This document shows, piece after piece, positions 18,901-33,653 of a DNA stretch of 64,000 bases. Location of the stretch: positions 1,240,001 through 1,304,000 of the forward strand of contig JARFIW010000942.1 in NCBI GenBank assembly GCA_036346225.1. The letters run 5' to 3'. The notes beneath the pieces were generated by a model, which searched no databases, was not told where the DNA came from, and saw only the letters and a program-made list of their open reading frames with translations. The position numbers were made by a program, and so were the translations under genes. Source of the DNA: Platerodrilus igneus (Eukaryota; Arthropoda; Insecta; Coleoptera; Lycidae). Within the stretch, counting starts at the first letter, position 1. Each line of letters starts with the position of its first letter.

Positions 18901-21900
18901 ATTGAGAAGTTGGCAAAGTAATTAAAACTAACCTTCCCCGGAGGAGGAACTCTTCCTGGTAGAAAATGGTATGAAGGATTTCTAAAACGAAATCCAGACA
19001 TTTCATTACGAACAAGTCAGAATCTGACAACGAGAAGAAAAGATGTATCTCAAAAGGACATAGACAAATGGTTCTTAGAGGTGGAAACGTATTTGAAAAA
19101 TAGCAAGCTTGAAAATGTTTTATTAAATCCCCAAAGAATTTTTAACTCGGATGAAACTGCTTTTTTCTTAAACCCAAAACCAGGTAAAGTTCTTGCTGAA
19201 AGAGGAACAAAGAAGGTATATACAGCAGCAGGATCTGATGAAAAATTCAACTTGACTGTCCTTTTAACAGCAAATGCGGCTAGAGAGCTTGCACCACCAA
19301 TGGTTGTTTACAGGTAAGGAGATCATACTTTTTAACATTTCCTAAATTTGTTATATGTTCTTAAATATTTTAGATATGCAAGAATCCCACAACACGTGGC
19401 AGAGGCTATGCCTGATGACTGGGCTATTGGAAGGTCAGAAAATGGCTGGATGACTCAAGAAACATTCTATGAATACACGACAAACATTTTTGAATCTTAC
19501 TTAAGAAAACAAAACATCGAGAAGCCAGTATTATTTTTCATGGATGGACACGTTTCCCATCTGTCTTTTGCCTTAAGCACTTTCTGTAAGACCCATGGAA
19601 TTGAACTAGTGGCTTTGTTTCCAAATTCCACTCATCTAATCCAACCAATGGACGTTGCTGTCCTTCGTGCTCTCAAAGTTGATTGGAGGCAGGTGGTCAT
19701 GAATTTTAGAATGCGCCACGAAGGCAAACAGTTACAGAAGCAGGATTTTCCACAAGTATTAAAATCAGTCCTGTCTCGATTAACACCTGAAACAATCATT
19801 AATGGTTTCAAGGCATGTGGGCTTGTTCCATGGGACCCAAAAAAGGTTGCTGTAACAACAGCAGCAAAGTCAAAGCGACTGATGTCGACAACACCAACAA
19901 AGAAAAAAGAAATGGCATCCTTCTTTAAGATCTTAGAAGAAAAAATAGGCGAAGATAAATTAAAGGCATTTAAAGAAAATGAAGATGAATGGGCAGGTCC
20001 TGTTGAGCAAACAGATTTGTACTACTTATGGCTAGCGACCAAGAAATTTCTAAATACCAAACCAGTTGTTCAGGTAAATTAAACTCTGTAAAAATAGTTA
20101 TCAAACATAGTATACTTCTATTTATTTTTCCTTCTGATCTCACATAAGTTTACATTTTATTTTTAATACAGTTTGTGCCGACAACACCTGAAGAGAAGAA
20201 TAAAGAACAAACCTGCAATCCTACAAATGATGCTGAATCTCCTCTACAATTGAATAATATTAGCCCTATGCCTGGATCATCAAATGTAGCTGAACCATCC
20301 AATGTAGCTGGACCATCAAATGTGCCATTCCCCTTCAAAAGAGCTCTTTTCTGGCCAGAAGAGGAAGAAAAAGGCAAACCTAAGAAAAGGAGGTAAGAAA
20401 AGCTTTCTGCAGTTGTGACCTCCAGATATGTTAAAATATTTTAAAAAGAAAGAAGAGAAGAAAAAGACTAAAGCTGCAGAAATTGAGAAAAGAAAGATTG
20501 AGAGAGAACTTAAGAGAAAACAGTCGGAAGAAAAAAAGAATACTCAAAAAAATATCAAAAAGAAATCTTTAGTCACTTCATCATCATCTAAAAACGATGA
20601 CCCTGAATTGGATGATTCAGGAAATTCACCTTGGGAAGAAATGGAAGACACTGAAAGTGAAGCAGGAGATCCTATTGTAAAAGAATCTTATGTTCAAGAA
20701 GGAAAATTTGTCCTTGTTCCATTTTTTGGTGGAAAAAGAAATGCGACAAAATATATTTATCTGTGTGTGGTTCAAGAAGTACAAGGGAAAACCATTCACG
20801 TCCAAGGTCTTAGATCAGCAGGGAGCAAAAAAAATTTATCATAATGGAAAAGGACATATTTGATATATTGGTAATTGAAATTATTGCAATAGTTCCACAA
20901 CCACAACTCGGGATGCAAGATCGTCAGTTGGTCTACACTTTCAATAAAAATTTGCCTGTGAAAGAAAAGTTGTAATGACGTTGGTTATTTTTCTTTTTTT
21001 TTAAAATTTCGCTTCTAGTTATATTGTTTAATCTACATTGCTGTATATTGTTATTAAAATATATATATACTCGACTGGCCCAGTTTTAAGGGGCTCATAA
21101 TAAGTACATCAGAAATTTAGTATGTCCAGTAATGGCTCATTGCTGATGTTTATATTTTAAACGTTTTTTGCAAATGTAAGTATGGTGTTGTACCATTTGA
21201 TGTGTTTCTTGTAATAAGTAGGTGTCTAACTAGTAACATACAATCAATTTGTTTCTTAGATCTCTCAAGTTTTGATGATACCTTATTGAACACCCTTAAG
21301 GGGCCCACTATAGGTACTACTACGATATGCTTTTTCAAAATTTTCACAGTGTTGAGTGATTCTGCATCGAGATACAACTTGTCATGTAGAAGTATTAGGA
21401 TCAACAGCAAAAAAAGCCATTACTGTTATTTTGAGGTTTTCTTCAACAACTTTACTGTCGTGTTGTTTCTTACTAATGCTAAATGACCCAATACTCTTCA
21501 TATTATAAAAAATAGTGCGAAGACTTTGGCGAGATGACCTGGTCTTCAACGGATATCTAATTGAAAATTGACAATTCGTTTCACTTAAGTTTCGACCGCA
21601 TTTGCCATAGCTAACTGTTACTTAAAAAAGTCAGAATTATTTAATTATTGAAGAGCCATTTCAATTAATTCACAATCTGACAAGTAAGAACCAGAACAAA
21701 TGAGTAAGCATTATAAAAATCACATCCAGCCATGATAACGATAAGAGTTGATGGGTCTTGCTACAGGATCGCCTCTACGCATGCATACACATTAATACAT
21801 TTTTGGTTTATTGTTTATTTTAGGTATAGGGATATGTTACCTATATTGAAACATAGCATTTTTAAAGCGCTATCCGATACGATAACTAAAAATACCACTT

Positions 21901-23728: not shown

Positions 23729-25643
23729 ATGGTGGGATTAAAATTTTTTTGTACGATTTCTATTTGCATGCCTGTCACTCGTACTAAAAAAAAAGAAATG
23801 GGCAGCGATATTTTTTTGTTTTTAAAAAAGTTCAAGTCAGGCATGGGAAAACACGCTGAGAAACAAGACCAAAACTTTGAAAACTTGGCAGCAAAGTTAG
23901 AAGAAAAAGGGGAAAGTTATTCTGGGAATGGATATCTTGAAGAGATATGGACTCCAAGTAGATATGAAAGAGTATGTCTTGAGAGTAGGGAATGAGGAAG
24001 TGCCGTTTTGAGAAACATATGACATACGGTGCAAGTTTGTTCGACGAGCAATGTTGTCCTACCTGGAAGAACAAAGTGTGATGGTGAAACACTTGGATGG
24101 TGCTCTCCGCGAAGCCTTTCTGTGCGCTAATGAACCGATTAGTAACAAATCTCTTGTAAAGGGCGTGCTTATAGGAAAGGCTCTGACCAAAGTGACAAAT
24201 TGTGTACCCGTTAAGATCTTAAACGCCAATGACTACGGTATAGCACTTGGAAAGAATACAACAGTTGGGTGGTGTTCTTCGGCTGTTTACGTGACAGGGT
24301 AGGCCAGTTGAAGAAACGGTATCAGCCATCTTGAACAACCACAACTGCCCGGACTTAAGAATTTGATCTGACGGTACTCGGGCGTGTTGGCGGTAAGGGT
24401 GGTCGATTAGGAAAGATAACAGTAGTCAGTCGAGTCTAGAATCGATACAGGAGATGCACGTCCAATAAGACAGCATCCATGAAGAAGCCAAGAAAATTAT
24501 TAGAGATTTAGAGGACAAAGAGCGATTGATCACTCTGATAACCCTTCACCATGGCCTGTTGTGCTTGTTAGGGTCAACGAGATTTTATGTGGACTACTGG
24601 CGATTGAATAACGTACCCAAAAAGTATAGCTACCTACTTCCAAAGATTTCGACACCCTAGATATACTTTTAGGGTCACGTTGGTTCTCAACCAACACCCT
24701 AGATACACTTTTAAGGTTGCGATGGTTCTCAACCTTGGTTTTGAAGAGTGGCTACTGGTAAGTGAATATGGAACCCAAAGCTTGAGAAAAAAAGCTTTCA
24801 CTATTGGTACTGGTCTATAGCTGTATATTTACACTCATTCCATTTGGACTCTGTAACGCTTCTGCCACTTCTGTATTGGATAACATCTTACGTGGGCTTT
24901 TGTGAAAAACATGTCTGGTATATTTGGATGACGCGGTCGTGATTGGGAAGTCGTTTGAGGAACACTTCGAAAATCTAGGAGAAGTGTTTCGTAGACTCAG
25001 AGGAGCCAATCTATAGCTAATCCCAAAGAAGTGTCACGTGCTAGGCAAAGAGGTGAAATATCTAAGGTACGTAGTTTCACGCAACGGAGTCAGGTTATAC
25101 CCAGAAAAGATTAAGGCGGTACAAAAGTGGCCGACCCCAAAAGACAAACAACAGCTACGCAACTTTCTAGGGTTGTGCACCTACTATAAAAGATTTGTTT
25201 CCGGGTTTATGAATATAGTCAAGCCCTTAACCAAGCTGATTGAAGATGGGCATGATTACGTTTGGAATCGAGATTGTCAGAACGCGTTCCAACAACTAAG
25301 ACATTTATTGACAACAGCTCCGATCTTAAGTTATGCTCGGTCGGAACGCAAATTCATCGTAGACACAGACGCAAGCAATTACGCCATCGGAAGTGTACTA
25401 TTCTAAATGCAAGACGTGCAAGGGAGAGTCCTTGGCTACTTTAGCAAGGTGCTCCTGAGACCGTAACCGAATATTGCGTTACTAGAAGGGAACTGTTAGC
25501 TGTGGTAAAATCCGTAGAACACTTTTATAAATAACTCTACGGGAAAAAGTTTCACCTGATAACCGACCACGCAACCCCAAAGTGGCTAATACAGATTAAA
25601 AACCACGAAGGGCAAGTCTCCAGATGGATAGAAAGGCTGCTGG
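23729..25643 (+). pseudogene. Gypsy-3: decayed Gypsy gag-pol fragment
   Basis: The 5' piece (MPVTRTKKK then FLKKFKSGMGK) resembles the gag start of the element at 26171 (MPITRS, FLKDFKSCMGK). At 24050-24300 a pol linker (EEQSVMVKHLDGALREAF; NCVPVKILNANDYGIALGKN) follows directly, so most of gag and protease is deleted. RT pieces continue (WPVVLVRV, YLDDAVVIGKSFEEHFENL, open frame 25038-25406 with [18 protein letters not shown] and the RNase H start VDTDASNYAIGSVLF), then RWIERLL. Many stops and frameshifts occur. It ends abruptly at about 25643 in unrelated coding sequence. Confidence 0.8.
24652..24735 (+). repeat. Tandem duplication of about 42 bp in the Gypsy-3 RT
   Basis: ACACCCTAGATA-ACTTTTA-GGT-GGTTCTCAACC appears twice in a row (24652-24692 and 24694-24735). 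It adds an extra copy of the RT segment encoding the [16 protein letters not shown] block, after inactivation. Confidence 0.7.
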
Positions 25644-25878: not shown

Positions 25879-26170
25879 ACCAAATAAGTTAATCTCAGGC
25901 CTATTGTTTTATTTTATGTTTTTTTTTGCTGGATTATTGTAAAATGTACAATAAAGTGTAAATAACTTAATAAATATTTATAATATTAAACTATTTTGGC
26001 TTGTATTGCTTGGTTTATTTTTACCTTTAAAATAAACATCTATTTTGTTTTCTTTCTTCCATCTGGTCAACTACTGGTACAACACAAGGTCAACTACAGA
26101 TTTTTTCATTTTTTGTTAATGACCAACTACTGGTTCATTAGCAAAGTTAACTAATTTTTATTTTACTTAT
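25879..26170 (+). other. 3' part of a DNA transposon interrupted by Gypsy-2
   Basis: Contains the 3' UTR and subterminal repeats with the word GGTCAACTACTGGTAC (26067) and variants at 26091 and 26133. The same word, GGTCAACTACTGGTGC, recurs at 32980 on the far side of Gypsy-2. This indicates that the Gypsy element split one transposon tail. Confidence 0.45.
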
Positions 26171-26703
26171 TGTTACGAGCTACTATTAAGCAACCCGTCA
26201 AACAACGAAGCGCCGTATGCACTGTATATTCTCAAGGGACCGAGATTTTTCTAGCAATTACTGGAGGATGAATCATCCTTTTAATTCAGGGTATAAATAA
26301 GACCAATGATGAAGTACAGAGTTAGTCTATATCAGAATGTCGAATATAAATTATATCGTGTTAAGTTAAATAGTTAAGGTTTTGGAAGTCCAAGAGTAAA
26401 CATAAATTATATGATGTGAACGTGTCTATTGTACATGCAGCTTGTAGAATACATAAATTGACAAAAGTGTAATAAATAAATAGTGGTGTTAGTGTTGTTA
26501 ATACACCTATGGTTAAGGATTTAGTCTAAGAAGATAATAGTGCTTGTAAATTCATTAGTGTGATAGTGCTTCATTGTTAATTGGACTGAAAGCATCTATA
26601 AATAAGCATATACTGTTAATTAGACTTGTGAACAGTGAGTAATAAAGACTTTTGTTATTACTTGTTTTAAATTACTGAAACACGGTAGTAGTAGCCCGCT
26701 ACA
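26171..26703 (+). repeat. Gypsy-2 5' LTR
   Basis: Starts TGTTACGAGCTACTATTAAG and ends GTAGTAGCCCGCTACA. It contains TATAAATAAG (about 26291) as a candidate TATA region and several AATAAA words (about 26471-26480, 26641) as candidate polyadenylation signals. Paired with 32289-32823. Confidence 0.9.
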
Positions 26704-26704
26704 C

Positions 26705-26722
26705 TGGCGTCAGGCTGTGTTG
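26705..26722 (+). promoter_or_regulatory. Gypsy-2 primer-binding site
   Basis: TGGCGTCAGGCTGTGTTG begins one base after the LTR end. A TGG start next to the LTR is the hallmark of a tRNA-primed PBS. The CGTCA wording suggests a Leu/Ser-type tRNA end, but the matching tRNA is not identified here. Confidence 0.65.
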
Positions 26723-26762
26723 GCTGATTAATTAAGTCTAAAGACATTTGAGTAGTTTGTAT

Positions 26763-28042
26763 ATGCCAATTACAAGAAGCTAAAGTAAAATGGACGCAGA
26801 AACTTTAATGAATTTCCTTAAGGATTTTAAATCCTGTATGGGGAAAGTTAAGTGAAAATACTGCAAAAATACAAAAAAAGTTTAGTGAAAATGCTGATAA
26901 AAAGGAAAGGTTAAGTGAAAATTCTGAAAAAAATGAAAGAGAGGTCAGCTAAATTAGAAGTGCCACTTAATGAAAACATAGTGAGGCCAGTTGAACTGGA
27001 ATCGACCCTTAAAGAGTTTAAATACGGTATGGAAGTGACACTTAGCGAAAATGCTGCGAAAATGAAAGCAAAGTTGAATGAAAATACAGCCACGCTAGAA
27101 CAAAGATTTATGGAAGGATCTATTGCACTGAAAGCAGATTTTACTGAACAGGCAAAAACAGTTGACCAAAAGTTGGACAGTAAATTGATAAAATGGAAGG
27201 AGATATGATGAGGCTGCAAGAACAAGTGATTTCACTAACAACGCGGCCACTTGAATTAGCAAACCAAGTTGTAAATCAGAATATCCCAGAAATAAGAAGC
27301 ATGGAAGGAAGCGAGTCAATACCGTCAAAATTTAAAGTGAAACCACCCACATTCGATAGTAAAACACCTTGGCCCACATATTTGAAACAATTTGAAGCTG
27401 CTGCAATAGCCAACGGTTGGTGCAACAAAGAGAAGGCTATCTCCTTAATAGTGGCCCTCCGAGGGGAAGCTCTTAACATCTTACAAACGATTTCCGATCA
27501 CCAGCAGAATGATTACGGCCTCTTAACATCGAAGCTTGAAATGAGATATGGAAACGCTCACCTTCAACAGGTATACCATGCACAAGTTAAAAACCGTTCG
27601 CAAAAGACAAATCAAAGTCTGCAAGCATTCGAAGCTGACATCACCAGATTAGTTAGATTGGCATACCCAACGGCATCAGATAGCTTCCTTGAACAACTGG
27701 TTGTTGAAACATTTGTGAATGGCGAAATACGGCAAGCGCTAAGACTAGCACGGCCAAAAATGTTAGATGACGCACTGGCTCATGCGCTTGAATTTGAAGC
27801 AGGTAAGCAGATATCACACAGGAAAAGTCACAAAGTTTGGTCTGCTTAGAAGAACCTGGCCAATCGCAGAACAGCATAGAAGAAATAATCAACCGTGTGT
27901 TTGAAAAGCAAAAAGCGGAAAAGCTTGAAAGACAACGACCGCGGAGATGGGGTTTGCGATGCTGGAACTGCGGTGAAGTTGGTCATATACAGAGACGCCG
28001 TACTCAACCAAAAAAACAACCGGTTGAGCAGCAGGAAAACTA
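26763..28042 (+). pseudogene. Gypsy-2 gag
   Basis: Gag begins around 26763 or 26790 (MDAETLMNFLKDFKS), with stops and frame changes in a repetitive, coiled-coil-like N-terminal part (26915-27208, Glu/Lys-rich). The main open piece 27193-27849 is a typical Gypsy capsid region: FKVKPPTFDSKTPWPTYLKQ, then KEKAISLIVALRGEALNIL, LEMRYGNAHLQQVY and LEQLVVETFVNGEIRQALR. After a frame change the zinc knuckle appears at about 27960 (CWNCGEVGHI), but the last Cys of C-x2-C-x4-H-x4-C is lost through an indel. Gag binds and packages the element RNA. Confidence 0.85.
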
Positions 28043-28069
28043 GAACAAGTCGACGTAAGGGGGCGAACG

Positions 28070-28426
28070 TTGACAGCACAACGTAGTGTCCCAGAGATTA
28101 TCATCCGTTCTGCATCGTCGATGGGGAGTCTGGACAGCATTTATATCGATGGTAGAATTAATGGTAGGGTTGTCCGATTACTCATTGATACAGGAGCGAC
28201 AAGGACTATTGTGAGACCATATTTGGTTGGTCGTGGAAAAGTGCTACCTGTATCAGTATGTCTTCGAACGGTAAGTGGTGAGAAAATTTCTACTCACGGA
28301 GAGACTGCCGTAACCTTGGGAATTGGAGACAAACTAATTAATCATCGGGTGTTGGTAGCTGGAATTACAGAAGAAGTGATCTCGGGAATTGATCTCATGA
28401 CAGAATATGGGTTTCGTGTGACATGA
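28070..28426 (+). pseudogene. Gypsy-2 aspartic protease
   Basis: The frame reads IYIDGRINGRVVRLLIDTGA; the catalytic Asp-Thr-Gly-Ala is at 28187-28198, with the flap block following and the second conserved motif near VLVAGITEEVISGIDLM. Retropepsin matures gag-pol. The stop at 28424 comes from a one-base shift (the other frame continues DMKENVLRIDDDEIPF), so the link to RT is broken. Confidence 0.85.
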
Positions 28427-28429
28427 AAG

Positions 28430-30240
28430 AAAATGTGCTACGGATAGATGATGATGAAATTCCATTTCAAGGGACGAGTAACCAGACGATGCAAGTTTAA
28501 ATGATTTGTGATATGAAAATACCCGAGAAGACGGAAATGATAGTAATGGGACGCCCGGATGCTACGCTCCGGGAAGGACAAGTATGCATGATGGAAACAA
28601 CTGAATCGGGAATGGTCAGGAGGGCTTACTGATTGGAAGAACGCTAGTAAAGCATCGAAATATGATACCAGTAAGGGTGCTAAACATTAATCCGCATACG
28701 ATGACCCTGAAGAAAAACATTATTGTGGGAAGTTGCATTCCAGTATGCCATATTAAACGTTGTGTGGACGACACAAAAGATAAACCAGCTAACGGTTGCT
28801 CACAGAAATTGTTGGATATGTTGATACCTTTGTGTCAAGGAATAAACGGCGACCAACTGGGCAAGGTAAAAGAACTGGTCGGACGATATCGAGGTGTGTT
28901 TGCAGTGGATGATAGTGAGTAAGCAAGGACGAATGTTGTGCAACATAAGATCATTACTGGAGATGCGCAACCGATAAGACTACACCCCAGGCGGCTTCCT
29001 TTGGCAAAACGTAAGGAAGCCGAGCAAATTATCACCGATGGAAAAACAGGGAGTGATTAAACCCTCGAATAGTCCATGGGCATACCCGGTAGTGCTTGTC
29101 AAGAAAAAGGATGGGTCGACAAGGTTTTGTGTAGACTACCGGCGGCTTAACAATGTGACAAAGAAAGACAGCTATCCTTTGCCCAGAATTGATGACACTT
29201 TGGATACTCTATCCGGATCTAAATGGTTTTTGACCTTGGACTTGACAAGCGGATACTGGCAGGTAGGCTTAGAGCCAAACAATAAAGAAAAAACTGCGTT
29301 TACAATTGGAACTGGATTATGGCACTTCAAGGTCATGCCATTTGGATTATGCAATGCCCCTGCTACTTTAGAACGTTTGATGGAGTCGATACTGCGTGGA
29401 CTGTCCTGGAAAACACGTCTGGTGTACCTAGACGACGTGATAGTGTTAGGCCGGTCTTTTGAAGAACACCTTAAGAACCTACAGGAGATATTCCAAAGAT
29501 TACGCGGGGCAAACCTTACATTGAGCCCCAAGAAATGTCACCTATTTGGAAAAGAGGTGAAATACCTAGGACATGTCGTTTCGGAGACCGGAATAAGAGC
29601 TGACCCTGACAAAATAAAAACGGTACAAAATTGGCCTACACCAGCAGATATACACCAACTACGCAGTTTTCTAGGATTGTGCACATATTACCGACGGTTT
29701 ATACTTGGGTTTGCGAACATTGCCAAACCATTAACGAAATTAACCAAAGATGGTCAAGAATATGATTGTAATGACGACTGCCACAGTGCATTTCAACAAC
29801 TGAAACGGCTACTAGTTACAGCACCAATTTTGAGCTATCCACGGATGGAGGGGAAGTTTGTGTTGGATACCGATGCCAGTAACACAGCTATAGGAAGCGT
29901 TCTTTCTCAAGTGCAGGCCGGACAAGAAAAGTTTATTGGGTATTTCAACGAGGTCTTGTCGCGGCCAGAAAAGAACTATTGTGTGACAAGAATGGAGCTG
30001 TTGGCCGTCGTCAAATCCGTAGAGCACTAATATAAGTACTTATACGGCCGTAAATTTCTATTGAGAACAAACCATGCTGCATTAAAATGGTTACTGCAGT
30101 TTTGAAATCCCGAAGGACAAGTTGCAAGGTGGATAGAACGGCTGCAAGAATATGACTTTGACACAGAACATCGTGTAGGAACTAGCTATCGGAATGCAGA
30201 CGCTCTGTCAAGGAGACCTTGTCCGGCAGACTGCAATCAT
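28430..30240 (+). pseudogene. Gypsy-2 reverse transcriptase and RNase H
   Basis: The linker is open at 28662-28922, then TAA at 28921-28923. RT begins in [18 protein letters not shown]. The open frame 29038-30030 holds [35 protein letters not shown] (motif A Asp), [16 protein letters not shown] and YLDD at 29425-29436 (catalytic Asp pair intact), then [14 protein letters not shown]. RNase H begins [17 protein letters not shown] and continues past stops at 30028 and about 30103 with WIERLQEYDFDTEHRVGTSY and RNADALSRRP. The enzymes copy the element RNA to DNA and degrade the template strand. Confidence 0.9.
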
Positions 30241-30249
30241 TGCTCCAAG

Positions 30250-31425
30250 ATGGAAGAGAAAATAAGTGTCATCCATAAAATGAAGGTAACCGATGATACT
30301 TGGCAACCCGAAAAAATACGACAAGACCAAGAGAAAGACTTCGAATTGGTACGTATTATTGTGTGGAAAAGTAGAGGACAACGACCAGCTTGGGAAGAAA
30401 TTAGTATTTCATGTAGGAGTCTGAAGGCATACTGGACACAGTGGGACTCCTTGGTGATTGAAAATAGAATCTTGCAACGAAGCCTGGAATGTGAAGATGG
30501 CACTGAGAGACTTCAAGTGATAGTGCCGAGAAGCAGAGCGCCGGAAGTGTTGCAGCACTTGCACTATGGTATTTCCAGAGGGCACTTTGACGTGAAAAGA
30601 ACTCTCGAAAGAGTGAGAGAAAGATTCTATTGGGTGAACTGCAAAAAAGATTTGAAGGTGTGGTGCCGGAAATGTGAGTTGTATGCCTTTGCAAATGGCT
30701 CGGTCACAAAACGTAAAGCCTCAATGAGACAGTATAACGTGAGGAATCCTTTTGAGAGAGTAGCCATTGATATAGATGGTCCGTTTCCTGAATCAGAGAA
30801 AAGAAATAAATACATCTTGGTTGCAATGGATTATTTTACCAAATGGCCGGCGGCATATGCTATACCTAACCAAGAAGCTGAGACGGTTGCAGATGTACTA
30901 GTGAGGGAGTTGTTTTGTCGCTTTGGAGTTCCGTTGGAATTACACTCCGATCAAGGTCGGAACTTCGAATCAGCTTTGTTTCAAAACGTCTGCAAGCATC
31001 TTGGAGTCAGGAATACTAGAACCATGCCACTTCATCCTCAATCGGATGGAATGGTTGAAAGAATGAACAGGACGTTAGGAAAGTACCTAGCCAAAGGTGT
31101 CTCTGAACATCAACGAGACTGGGATCAATATTTACATTTGTTCCTACTGGCGTACCGATCTTCGGTACATGATAGCACATGATACTCTCCCGCTTGCGTG
31201 ATGTTAGGACGTCAATTGCGGCTACCATGTGATCTTCTGTTTGGATTTAAACCTGGAGAACAGATCGCAGGTGAAGATTACGTTAGTAAGCTTCGTGAAA
31301 GATCAAATAGCATTCACGAAAACGTCCGAAAAAATATCTTAGCAGCAAGCGATCGAATGAAATCACAATATGACACGAGAGCTCAAGAAGGTGGTTATCA
31401 ACCGAGATTTAGTGTGGTTGTATAA
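30250..31425 (+). pseudogene. Gypsy-2 integrase
   Basis: Open 30250-31182, a TGA at 31180-31182, then open again to 31425 in the same frame. The N-terminal zinc-binding HHCC is seen as H-x3-5-H (LHYGISRGHFDVKRTLERV) with CRKC. The catalytic core has Asp in AIDIDGPFPESE, Asp in LHSDQGRNFESALF and Glu in DGMVERMNRTLG, the normal D,D(35)E set. The frame ends at 31425 through a small indel around 31400; the natural continuation is the frame starting at 31370. Integrase inserts the cDNA into the host genome. Confidence 0.9.
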
Positions 31426-32320
31426 TCCACAAAGAAAGCGTGGGTTGTCGCCAAAATTACAAAGACAATGGGAAGGCCCGTACGAAGTGTTAACAAGAAT
31501 TAATGATGTAGTGTACCGGATCAGAAGATCTCCCCGTGGTAAACCGAAAGTGGTATACTTTGACCGATTAACATCTTATGCTGGCAACAACCAGGGGGAC
31601 TTGAGTAATGAGAATGGTGTGCGAAGAGTTATTAATCGTGAGCCAAATGTAGATTTTGAGAGTTTCATAGCGGCGCATGGTTGTTCTGCTAAGGCGAGAT
31701 TTGGCGTTGTTGTTGAAAAACAACAAGATCTGTTTAGAACACCAGAAGAGTATTCCCTTGCACATTGCGTAGCTCAGGACCTGCAAATGTCAAGAGGGAT
31801 AGCTATTGTTTTCAAGAAAAAGTTTGGATATGTGAATGAATTAGTACAACAGCAGCCAACTGTAGGAAGAGCTTTTGTTCTTCAGGATAAAAATCGTTAT
31901 GTTTACTATCTGGTCACCAAAAATCCTTCATGGCAGAGACCTAGTTATGAACCTTTATGGAAGGCTTTGCTAAATCTTAAGGCTCAGATGATGAAAAATG
32001 GAGTAACAAAACTAGCGGAGCCCAAGCTAGGCTGTGGACTGGATCGCTTAGATTGGAGGATAGTCCGAAATATGCTAGAAGTAGTTTTTCAGGAAACCAA
32101 CGTGCAGGTCCTTGTTTGTTGTTATCAACCGGTTGCCTACCAAGACCAAGAAAAGAGTGTTGACTGTTATTTCCAACGACGTGGTGGATGCACCAGAGGA
32201 GATAGCTGCCGATACCGTTATCAGGCATCGAATTGGCGTCAACATGTATTTACAGTTACGAGACGTAACGGTTTTAAAGAGGAGGCAGTGTTACAAGCTA
32301 CTATTAGGCAACCCGTCTAA
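31370..32320 (+). CDS. Gypsy-2 pol C-terminus: GPY/F region, TARG1/OARD1-type macrodomain, CCCH-like zinc finger
   Basis: One uninterrupted 316-codon frame. Residues about 13-68 are the integrase tail (DLVWLYNPQRKRGLSPKL, WEGPYEVLTRIND, VYFDRL), that is, GPY/F. Residues about 113-252 match the macrodomain of human OARD1/TARG1, which removes ADP-ribose from glutamates: SLAHCVAQDLQMSRGIAIVF, KKFGYVNEL, RYVYYLVTKNPSW, PKLGCGLDRLDW. The lysine and aspartate used for catalysis in TARG1 (Lys84 and Asp125 of the human protein) are present as Lys184 and Asp225. Residues 266-284 are a CCCH-like finger, C-x7-C-x5-C-x3-Tyr, with Tyr in place of the last His. The stop codon lies 30 bp inside the 3' LTR. 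The first ATG is internal; in an intact element the frame would be the end of pol. Function in the element is inferred, not shown. Confidence 0.88.
   Translation: MTRELKKVVINRDLVWLYNPQRKRGLSPKLQRQWEGPYEVLTRINDVVYRIRRSPRGKPKVVYFDRLTSYAGNNQGDLSNENGVRRVINREPNVDFESFIAAHGCSAKARFGVVVEKQQDLFRTPEEYSLAHCVAQDLQMSRGIAIVFKKKFGYVNELVQQQPTVGRAFVLQDKNRYVYYLVTKNPSWQRPSYEPLWKALLNLKAQMMKNGVTKLAEPKLGCGLDRLDWRIVRNMLEVVFQETNVQVLVCCYQPVAYQDQEKSVDCYFQRRGGCTRGDSCRYRYQASNWRQHVFTVTRRNGFKEEAVLQATIRQPV
32276..32288 (+). promoter_or_regulatory. Gypsy-2 polypurine tract
   Basis: AAAGAGGAGGCAG directly precedes the TG of the 3' LTR, the expected place for the plus-strand primer. It overlaps coding sequence of the C-terminal frame. 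Confidence 0.75.
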
Positions 32321-32823
32321 CACAGAAATGCCGTAAGCACTGTATATTCTCCAGGGACCAAGTATTTTCTAGCAATTACTGGAGGATGAATCATTCTTTT
32401 AATTCAGAATATAAATAAGACCGATGATGAAGTATGGAGTTAGACTATATCAGAATGTCGAATACAAATTATATCGTGTAAAGTCAAATAGTTAAGGTTT
32501 TGGAAGTTCAAGAGTAAACATAAATTTATATTATGTGAACGTGTCTATTGTAAATGCAGCTTGTAGAATACATAAATTGACAAAAGTGTAATAAATAAAT
32601 AGTGGTGTTAGTGTTGTTAATACACCTATGGTTAAGGATTTAGTTTAAGAAGATACTAGTGCTTGTAAATTCATTAGTGTGATAGTGCTTCATTGTTAAT
32701 TGGACTGAAAGCATCTATAAATAAAGCATATACTGTTAATTAGATTTGTGAACAGTGAGTAATAAAGACTTTTGTTATTACTTGTTTTAAATTACTGTAC
32801 CGCGGTAATAGTAGCCCGCTACA
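32289..32823 (+). repeat. Gypsy-2 3' LTR
   Basis: Starts TGTTACAAGCTACTATTAGG, ends GTAGCCCGCTACA, and is followed by the target duplication TTAT. Its first 32 bases also code for the end of the pol frame. Confidence 0.9.
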
Positions 32824-33653
32824 TTATCTTACAGGTTTATTTTTTTTGGAAAAATAGTACTTATTCCTTAACTTAGAAGTGGTACTTGGTTGTTTAAAAC
32901 ATTCATTTCGTTGTTTTAAGATAATTTAAGGTGCACACACACACACACACTAAAACTGTCTAGCAGCTTTCTTAAACGGTCAACTACTGGTGCCTTTACC
33001 TTATGTCCAGAAAAAACTTAAATTCCAAGGAACAATCCACTTAGTATATTTGTATTTAGTTAAGCACTGCTAAAATGTAAGATTACTTACAATTATAACT
33101 TTATGAGTTTGTAGTTAACTTGTAACTGCATTCTTCTCACTTTAGTTTTCATGTGAATTGGTTTCTTCTTATAAAATTAAATCCAAAAGGTAACAATTTG
33201 GATACTAGACTAATTTGGGGTTTTCTACAGTGATTGTGCATTTTGGTACACAATAGATGAAAATTAGAAACGGTGTGGTGATTGTGCTCATTTATAACAC
33301 TCATAGCTACTTGTAACTAGAGATAAGATGTAATACATTAGCCAAGGGTATTTTTAAATTGTTCCTACTGATATGATGGTTGTCTACGTTTCGGTTTCAG
33401 TATTCTTTTTAACCACTTATCATTTGAGAGACTGATAATTCTAAAACGTATTTGATCATAACAGTCGTGTTTGTATATCTGTTAGATAGATTTGTTAGTA
33501 AAACTGGAACCAGAGTAATATATTTTGCATTTTACATTAAAATTTTCCCACGGGCAAATTAATATAAACTTTATGAATCTAGGATTTGTGTTGTGTAATT
33601 AAACGTCAGCTGGTTGGGTCGGGAGATCTGAATGCCAGACAGAGATAACAGAA
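32824..33653. other. DNA-transposon tail and 5' flank of ELL
   Basis: Begins with the second half of the transposon tail split by Gypsy-2 (GGTCAACTACTGGTGC at about 32980), with a short (AC)n run at 32934-32950. The rest up to 33653 should contain the ELL promoter and 5' UTR. No core promoter element can be singled out. Confidence 0.4.

Follow-up and report, generated by a model that had tools for sequence, protein, structure and literature searches.

A TARG1/OARD1-class macrodomain at the integrase end of a Ty3/Gypsy retrotransposon family of beetles

Introduction

Why should the integrase of a retrotransposon end in a domain of the kind that erases ADP-ribose? The question is raised by a 64,000-nucleotide stretch of Platerodrilus igneus DNA (Coleoptera; Lycidae; GenBank assembly GCA_036346225.1, contig JARFIW010000942.1, positions 1,240,001 to 1,304,000, forward strand), referred to here in its entirety as the window. 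It holds a Ty3/Gypsy-type long terminal repeat (LTR) retrotransposon whose integrase tail runs, in a single reading frame, into a macrodomain of the TARG1/OARD1 class. Viral macrodomains counter ADP-ribosylation. A preliminary description of the window, made from its letters, had placed the macrodomain at 31700-32130 and proposed that it was captured from a host gene and could take PARP marks off integrase, gag or chromatin. Here we ask what the domain is, how widely the fusion is shared, where it came from and what it may do for the element.

Results

The fusion lies in a 316-codon open reading frame (ORF) on the forward strand (31370-32320). Pfam matches the GPY/F-type integrase C-terminal motif (Integrase_p58_C, E 7.8e-12) at ORF residues 36-67 (31475-31570) and Macro at residues 136-234 (E 2.3e-5; 24.7 bits, cut-off 22), so the frame does run from a Gypsy integrase tail into a macrodomain. 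A search of the PDB with the ORF returned TARG1/C6orf130 entries as its best five matches (E 1.4e-39 to 2.7e-39), followed in sixth place by 5m31 (DarG, E 6.7e-6). The structure model of the macrodomain has the TARG1 fold and superposes on human TARG1 at about 1 Å. The alignment is gap-free, with model residues 20 to 162 matching TARG1 residues 10 to 152 and model residue i equal to TARG1 i-10; therefore Lys184 (codon 31919-31921) and Asp225 (codon 32042-32044) of the ORF correspond to TARG1 Lys84 and Asp125. Profile search and model thus agree that a macrodomain is present, at about 31703-32122, in accord with the coordinates first given for it. Its assignment to the TARG1/OARD1 class, with both catalytic residues kept, also holds and is supported by sequence, structure and the tree described below. 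Downstream lies a CCCH-like finger of the form C-x7-C-x5-C-x3-Y (32165-32221), its final ligand a Tyr in this copy in place of the His of the canonical C-x7/8-C-x5-C-x3-H; the Pfam finger matches at ORF residues about 261-288 fall under their cut-offs (E 0.0027-0.0041). No Chromo domain was matched by Pfam in proteins P0001, P0002, P0095 or P0125, and neither tblastn with the ORF nor blastn with the element found a second macrodomain copy in the window.

The ORF belongs to an element of 6653 bp on the forward strand (26171-32823), which is assigned to Ty3/Gypsy by its TG...CA LTR pair with a 4-bp target-site duplication, the order of protease, reverse transcriptase, RNase H and integrase, the GPY/F end and the polypurine tract. 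The LTRs are direct repeats of 533 bp (5', 26171-26703) and 535 bp (3', 32289-32823); their alignment has 32 mismatches over 533 bases plus 2 gap positions (6% diverged). They are flanked by the target-site duplication TTAT (26167-26170 and 32824-32827). A candidate primer binding site, TGGCGTCAGG..., begins one base past the 5' LTR, and a polypurine-rich tract, AAAGAGGAGGCAG (one C), directly precedes the 3' LTR at 32276-32288. The 316-codon ORF reads through this tract as codons, and its stop codon falls inside the 3' LTR. Upstream of the ORF, on the same strand, are a gag fragment with a weak capsid match (27193-27849; Retrotrans_gag, E 0.014, under cut-off), an aspartic protease (28070-28426; gag-asp_proteas, E 1.9e-7), the reverse transcriptase with the start of RNase H (29038-30030; RVT_1, E 3.3e-35; RT_RNaseH_2, E 1.9e-24) and the zinc-binding and core domains of the integrase (30250-31182; Integrase_H2C2, E 5.2e-15; rve, E 1.6e-15). 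The order of the enzymes is spread over broken frames: pol is interrupted by two stop codons, one ending at 30030 and the other at 31182, which close the last two of these frames, and then by a change of phase before 31370. The preliminary description had mentioned neither the finger, nor the passage of the ORF into the 3' LTR, nor the broken pol.

The fusion is not confined to this copy. Three protein searches, covering proteins of 0.55-1.75 times the query length, returned 89 proteins for the window ORF, 102 for the macrodomain-CCCH part of a Harmonia relative and 25 for the macrodomain alone, giving 179 distinct proteins with the window ORF included. A macrodomain profile built from this set matches 158 of the 179, in 122 of them over more than 85% of its length. 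Sixteen of the 122 were judged from their names and build to be OARD1 or something else, and setting them aside left 106; dropping P0164, P0166, P0167 and P0169 as well left 102 element-type macrodomains. In 94 of these 102 proteins, the window ORF among them, the macrodomain is preceded by a GPY/F-region match. Named hosts among the 102 are Harmonia, Aromia, Molorchus, Exocentrus, Callosobruchus, Diabrotica, Gonioctena and Pyrocoelia, which we take to represent four beetle families, and partial proteins from Leptinotarsa, Holotrichia, Aquatica and Ignelater would raise the number to six. Family membership was checked for Aromia, Pyrocoelia and Holotrichia, while Coccinellidae, Chrysomelidae, Elateridae and the families of the remaining host genera are presumed. 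Because 60 of the 122 full macrodomains sit in one 85% cluster, named Aromia, raw protein counts are weighted heavily to the Aromia genome.

Several relatives retain longer natural frames than the window copy. P0125 (945 aa) runs in a single frame from the end of the reverse transcriptase through RNase H, integrase and macrodomain to the CCCH motif, P0145 (Callosobruchus) is a single frame from reverse transcriptase into the macrodomain, and P0095 is one from RNase H onward. No DNA of related element copies was found in the viral-contig or genome-contig collections searched. The set also includes 21 proteins with no macrodomain match. Five of these (P0073, P0075, P0077, P0080 and P0089) end 6-28 residues past the GPY/F motif, a build that looks like an older form of the element without the macrodomain; among the rest are truncated proteins and odd gene models.

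Of the 102 element-type macrodomains, 98 keep the Lys-Asp pair; by cluster, the figure is 24 of 27. It is replaced by Arg and Gly in clusters P0012 and P0018 and by Arg and Glu in P0014 of Diabrotica, and a single Aromia copy, P0136, carries Lys with Gly at these positions. On the tree the double losses amount to two changes, one for P0012 with P0018 and one for P0014. All three clusters keep their frame and CCCH motif intact despite the changed residues, and it is possible that they are pseudoenzyme readers. In the ADP-ribose-binding loop, GIA is retained in most element clusters. The two residues before it are mostly Ser (22 of 28 clusters) and Arg or Lys (24 of 28); the other rows most often have Gly (9 of 15) and Ala (7 of 15).

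The motif C-x7-C-x5-C-x3-[H/Y] follows the macrodomain in 20 of the 27 clusters, ending in His in 19 and in Tyr in the window copy; in three of the seven clusters that lack it, the tail is no longer than 30 residues. Counted over the 102 rows, the motif ends in His in 75 and in another residue in 4, and was not found in 23 (14 with tails under 45 residues). Mean pairwise identities among 17 members are 79% for the integrase core (21 of 136 pairs), 73% for its C-terminal region (120 pairs), 35% for the linker (120 pairs), 52% for the macrodomain (136 pairs), 52% for the finger (120 pairs) and 22% for the tail past the finger (19 pairs). The macrodomain is therefore held more strongly than the linker and less strongly than the integrase. 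In a model of P0002 (Harmonia) built with 34 sequences, the macrodomain has high confidence, the finger region has block values of about 64-83, the interdomain linkers have low confidence and the overall predicted TM score (pTM) is 0.47.

In a macrodomain tree of 47 rows (midpoint-rooted for drawing; 26 of 44 inner branches open), the element macrodomains form one clade of 31 rows with support 99/98. Its neighbours, attached at 97/91, are P0167, P0054, P0166 (Diabrotica) and P0164 (Diorhabda). Among named cellular proteins, the closest to the element macrodomain are P0166 and P0164, long leaf-beetle proteins in which Pfam found no retroelement domain. Both carry a TARG1-like macrodomain after a part that looks of low complexity and, judged by eye, a further, degenerate macro-like region. 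Lizard and mosquito OARD1 fall on the opposite side of the tree. Since the element clade joins OARD1-like leaf-beetle proteins, capture from an insect OARD1-type gene fits, and the macrodomain tail was probably acquired in this way. The host capture first proposed is thus compatible with the tree at the level of gene type.

Three proteins named OARD1-like, P0049 and P0051 from the leafhopper Macrosteles and P0074 from Leptinotarsa, are placed within the element clade (P0051's cluster includes P0049), although the two Macrosteles proteins were among the 16 set aside. By eye, P0074 begins with integrase sequence. The names are probably wrong and the proteins pieces of the element; because the Macrosteles proteins lie inside the clade, the family is present in Hemiptera also. 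The integrase-core tree (16 rows) has no starred branch, and P0066 and P0071, which have no macrodomain match, mingle in it with macrodomain-bearing rows; consequently it does not decide whether the macrodomain was gained once.

A different arrangement is seen in P0169, a piece of Gypsy pol (585 aa; two member sequences), where the end of RNase H (by eye) is followed by a TARG1-like macrodomain at residues 117-211 (E 5.9e-5) and then by the integrase. This integrase is distant from the others (end branch 3.64). The macrodomain groups with cellular OARD1 on a long branch, and the approximately unbiased (AU) test does not reject its union with the element clade (p-AU 0.162). S-R also precedes its GIA, as in element clusters. 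Either the domain was captured a second time or it passed from one element to another. In some lentiviruses a dUTPase occupies this place between RNase H and integrase.

Some further observations concern the surroundings of the fusion. The gag of related Aromia elements starts with a SAP domain (P0113, E 8e-9), and no SAP domain was found in the 21-residue piece at the start of the window gag. In a Holotrichia gene model (P0152), part of a macrodomain is joined to an HTH_psq domain and a weak match to DDE_1; the model is probably the element adjoining another transposon. In the window itself, 24722-25640 is a fragment of another Gypsy element (reverse transcriptase/RNase H), its DNA 65% identical to the macrodomain-bearing element, and 19348-20082 is an ORF with a DDE_1 transposase domain (Pfam E 1.9e-15).

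Discussion

A Gypsy integrase that ends in a macrodomain, enclosed by a pair of LTRs, recurs across beetles as a single clade with its Lys-Asp pair kept. With moderate confidence, we propose that this probably OARD1-derived domain, in most members together with the CCCH finger, strips ADP-ribose near the site of integration and so carries the element past PARP-dependent signalling or silencing. Strand breaks at the integration site would call PARP1, and the integrase tether would bring the macrodomain to the same place. There it would hydrolyse ADP-ribose from glutamate and aspartate or from nucleic-acid ends beside the integrating element. The marks removed may be those that PARP1 adds at strand breaks, or the products of silencing enzymes, and their loss would evade the damage signalling or silencing that depends on them. 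CCCH motifs bind RNA in many proteins; the finger could therefore bind RNA here and hold the macrodomain on the element RNA or particle.

TARG1 is described as clearing ADP-ribose from Glu and Asp and from nucleic-acid ends (PMC7050489, PMC8053099), SIRT6 is reported to ADP-ribosylate KAP1 and thereby repress L1 (PMC4695847), and L1 is also reported to be restricted by the CCCH protein ZAP/PARP13 (PMC4441479). We prefer action at the integration site to an antiviral conflict of the vertebrate kind because insects are without most vertebrate PARPs.

Several points weigh against the proposal. The first is that same scarcity: according to PMC10221186, insects have few PARPs, most of the vertebrate ones being absent. 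Two lineages keep the domain without its catalytic residues, and binding suits them better than catalysis; the same source describes repeated loss of macrodomain activity in alphaviruses and in mammalian PARP14. The substrate pocket may differ from that of cellular TARG1, since the two residues before GIA are changed in most element clusters. One subclade has no CCCH motif, and the last ligand of the window copy is Tyr. Sequence change is faster in the macrodomain than in the core of the integrase (mean identity 52% versus 79%, the core value coming from only 21 of 136 pairs). Pfam Macro falls under its cut-off in P0125 (E 0.056) and P0014 (E 0.034) and has no match within E 0.1 in P0002 or P0145, so the macrodomains of these members rest on the family profile and alignment. 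Finally, the window copy is unable to make an uninterrupted pol.

The main rival to an integrase-tethered eraser, modelled on the chromovirus chromodomain, is a reader: the macrodomain would bind ADP-ribosylated chromatin, such as break sites or PARP1-marked nucleosomes, and steer integration there. Its position after GPY/F matches that of the chromodomain, which is held to steer integration via histone marks (PMC3605345). Some macrodomains are described as readers (PMC7050489), TARG1 itself is recruited to damage sites in a poly(ADP-ribose)-dependent manner (PMC8053099), and P0012, P0018 and P0014 keep the domain without both catalytic residues. A pure reader would have no need of the hydrolytic pair that 24 of the 27 clusters retain, and we consider this explanation rather unlikely. 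A composite is slightly easier to accept, and we offer it tentatively: the integrase eraser would wipe the PARP1 and silencing mark at the landing site, letting the element evade the damage response as well as the onset of heterochromatin; in some lineages the eraser would since have become a reader that chooses landing sites, and a second Gypsy lineage would have taken the domain elsewhere in pol.

Less probable still is a role in nucleic-acid repair, in which a macrodomain brought by the CCCH finger would clear ADP-ribose from the ends of element RNA or cDNA before integration. The finger follows the macrodomain in 20 of the 27 clusters but is missing from one subclade, and to our knowledge no ADP-ribose has been found on retroelement nucleic acids in insects. 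TARG1 and the related DarG and SCO6735 are described as taking ADP-ribose off nucleic acids (PMC7050489, PMC8053099). The domain might instead be a captured exon carried without function, as its conservation below that of the integrase and the loss of the catalytic pair at least twice could suggest. We think this very doubtful, because the reading frame and the active site of the domain are retained among members that share about 50% identity and come, counting full-length named proteins, from four beetle families. The broken state of the window copy could also recall an artefact, a host OARD1 fragment lying beside or inserted into one element copy. We give this almost no credence: an artefact or single capture is ruled out by the relatives, 94 of 102 with GPY/F and macrodomain, and by the place of the domain between integrase and 3' LTR.

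With TARG1/OARD1 (C6orf130), an ALC1-like macrodomain hydrolase, the element domain has in common its sequence, predicted fold and Lys84/Asp125 pair. The ALC1-like macrodomains are described as minimal and without extensions (PMC7050489), whereas that of the element sits after an integrase tail and before a CCCH motif. Chromoviruses likewise carry an extra chromatin-type domain after GPY/F (PMC3605345), the place that a macrodomain takes in the window element family, with no Chromo match in the four proteins searched. The nearest precedent is found in fish, where Epsilon-like endogenous retroviruses are LTR retroelements with macro-domain ORFs, according to a review (PMC4977317) citing Basta et al. 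2009. As that review describes them, these are additional ORFs in vertebrate retroviruses; the insect element has a Gypsy integrase fusion. Among viruses, VP8 of Kadipiro virus (BFVD A0A8E0KJF2) matches the TARG1-like model of the element domain (42% identical in the structural alignment, E 6.3e-21), though with a root-mean-square deviation of 8.7 over 179 columns. It and the proteins of a Frankliniella flavi-like virus and alphavirus nsP3 have TARG1-like or general macrodomain folds and are viral proteins, not integrases; in an aphid virome study the macro-like domain likewise belongs to a flavi-like virus and not to a retroelement (PMC11642819). The preliminary description knew of no established account of the fusion, and we found no report of an LTR retrotransposon bearing a macrodomain in open-licence PubMed Central papers, among the matches listed, with preprints and most subscription papers outside that scope.

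Some annotated OARD1-like genes appear to be pieces of this element, which affects counts of insect ADP-ribose erasers. An ADP-ribose hydrolase fold on a retrotransposon integrase unites two ideas, the viral macrodomain and chromodomain-directed integration, and raises a testable question: does ADP-ribosylation restrain insect transposons, and do transposons counter it? Removal of a host mark during insertion, as predicted here, would be a new trick for LTR retrotransposons.
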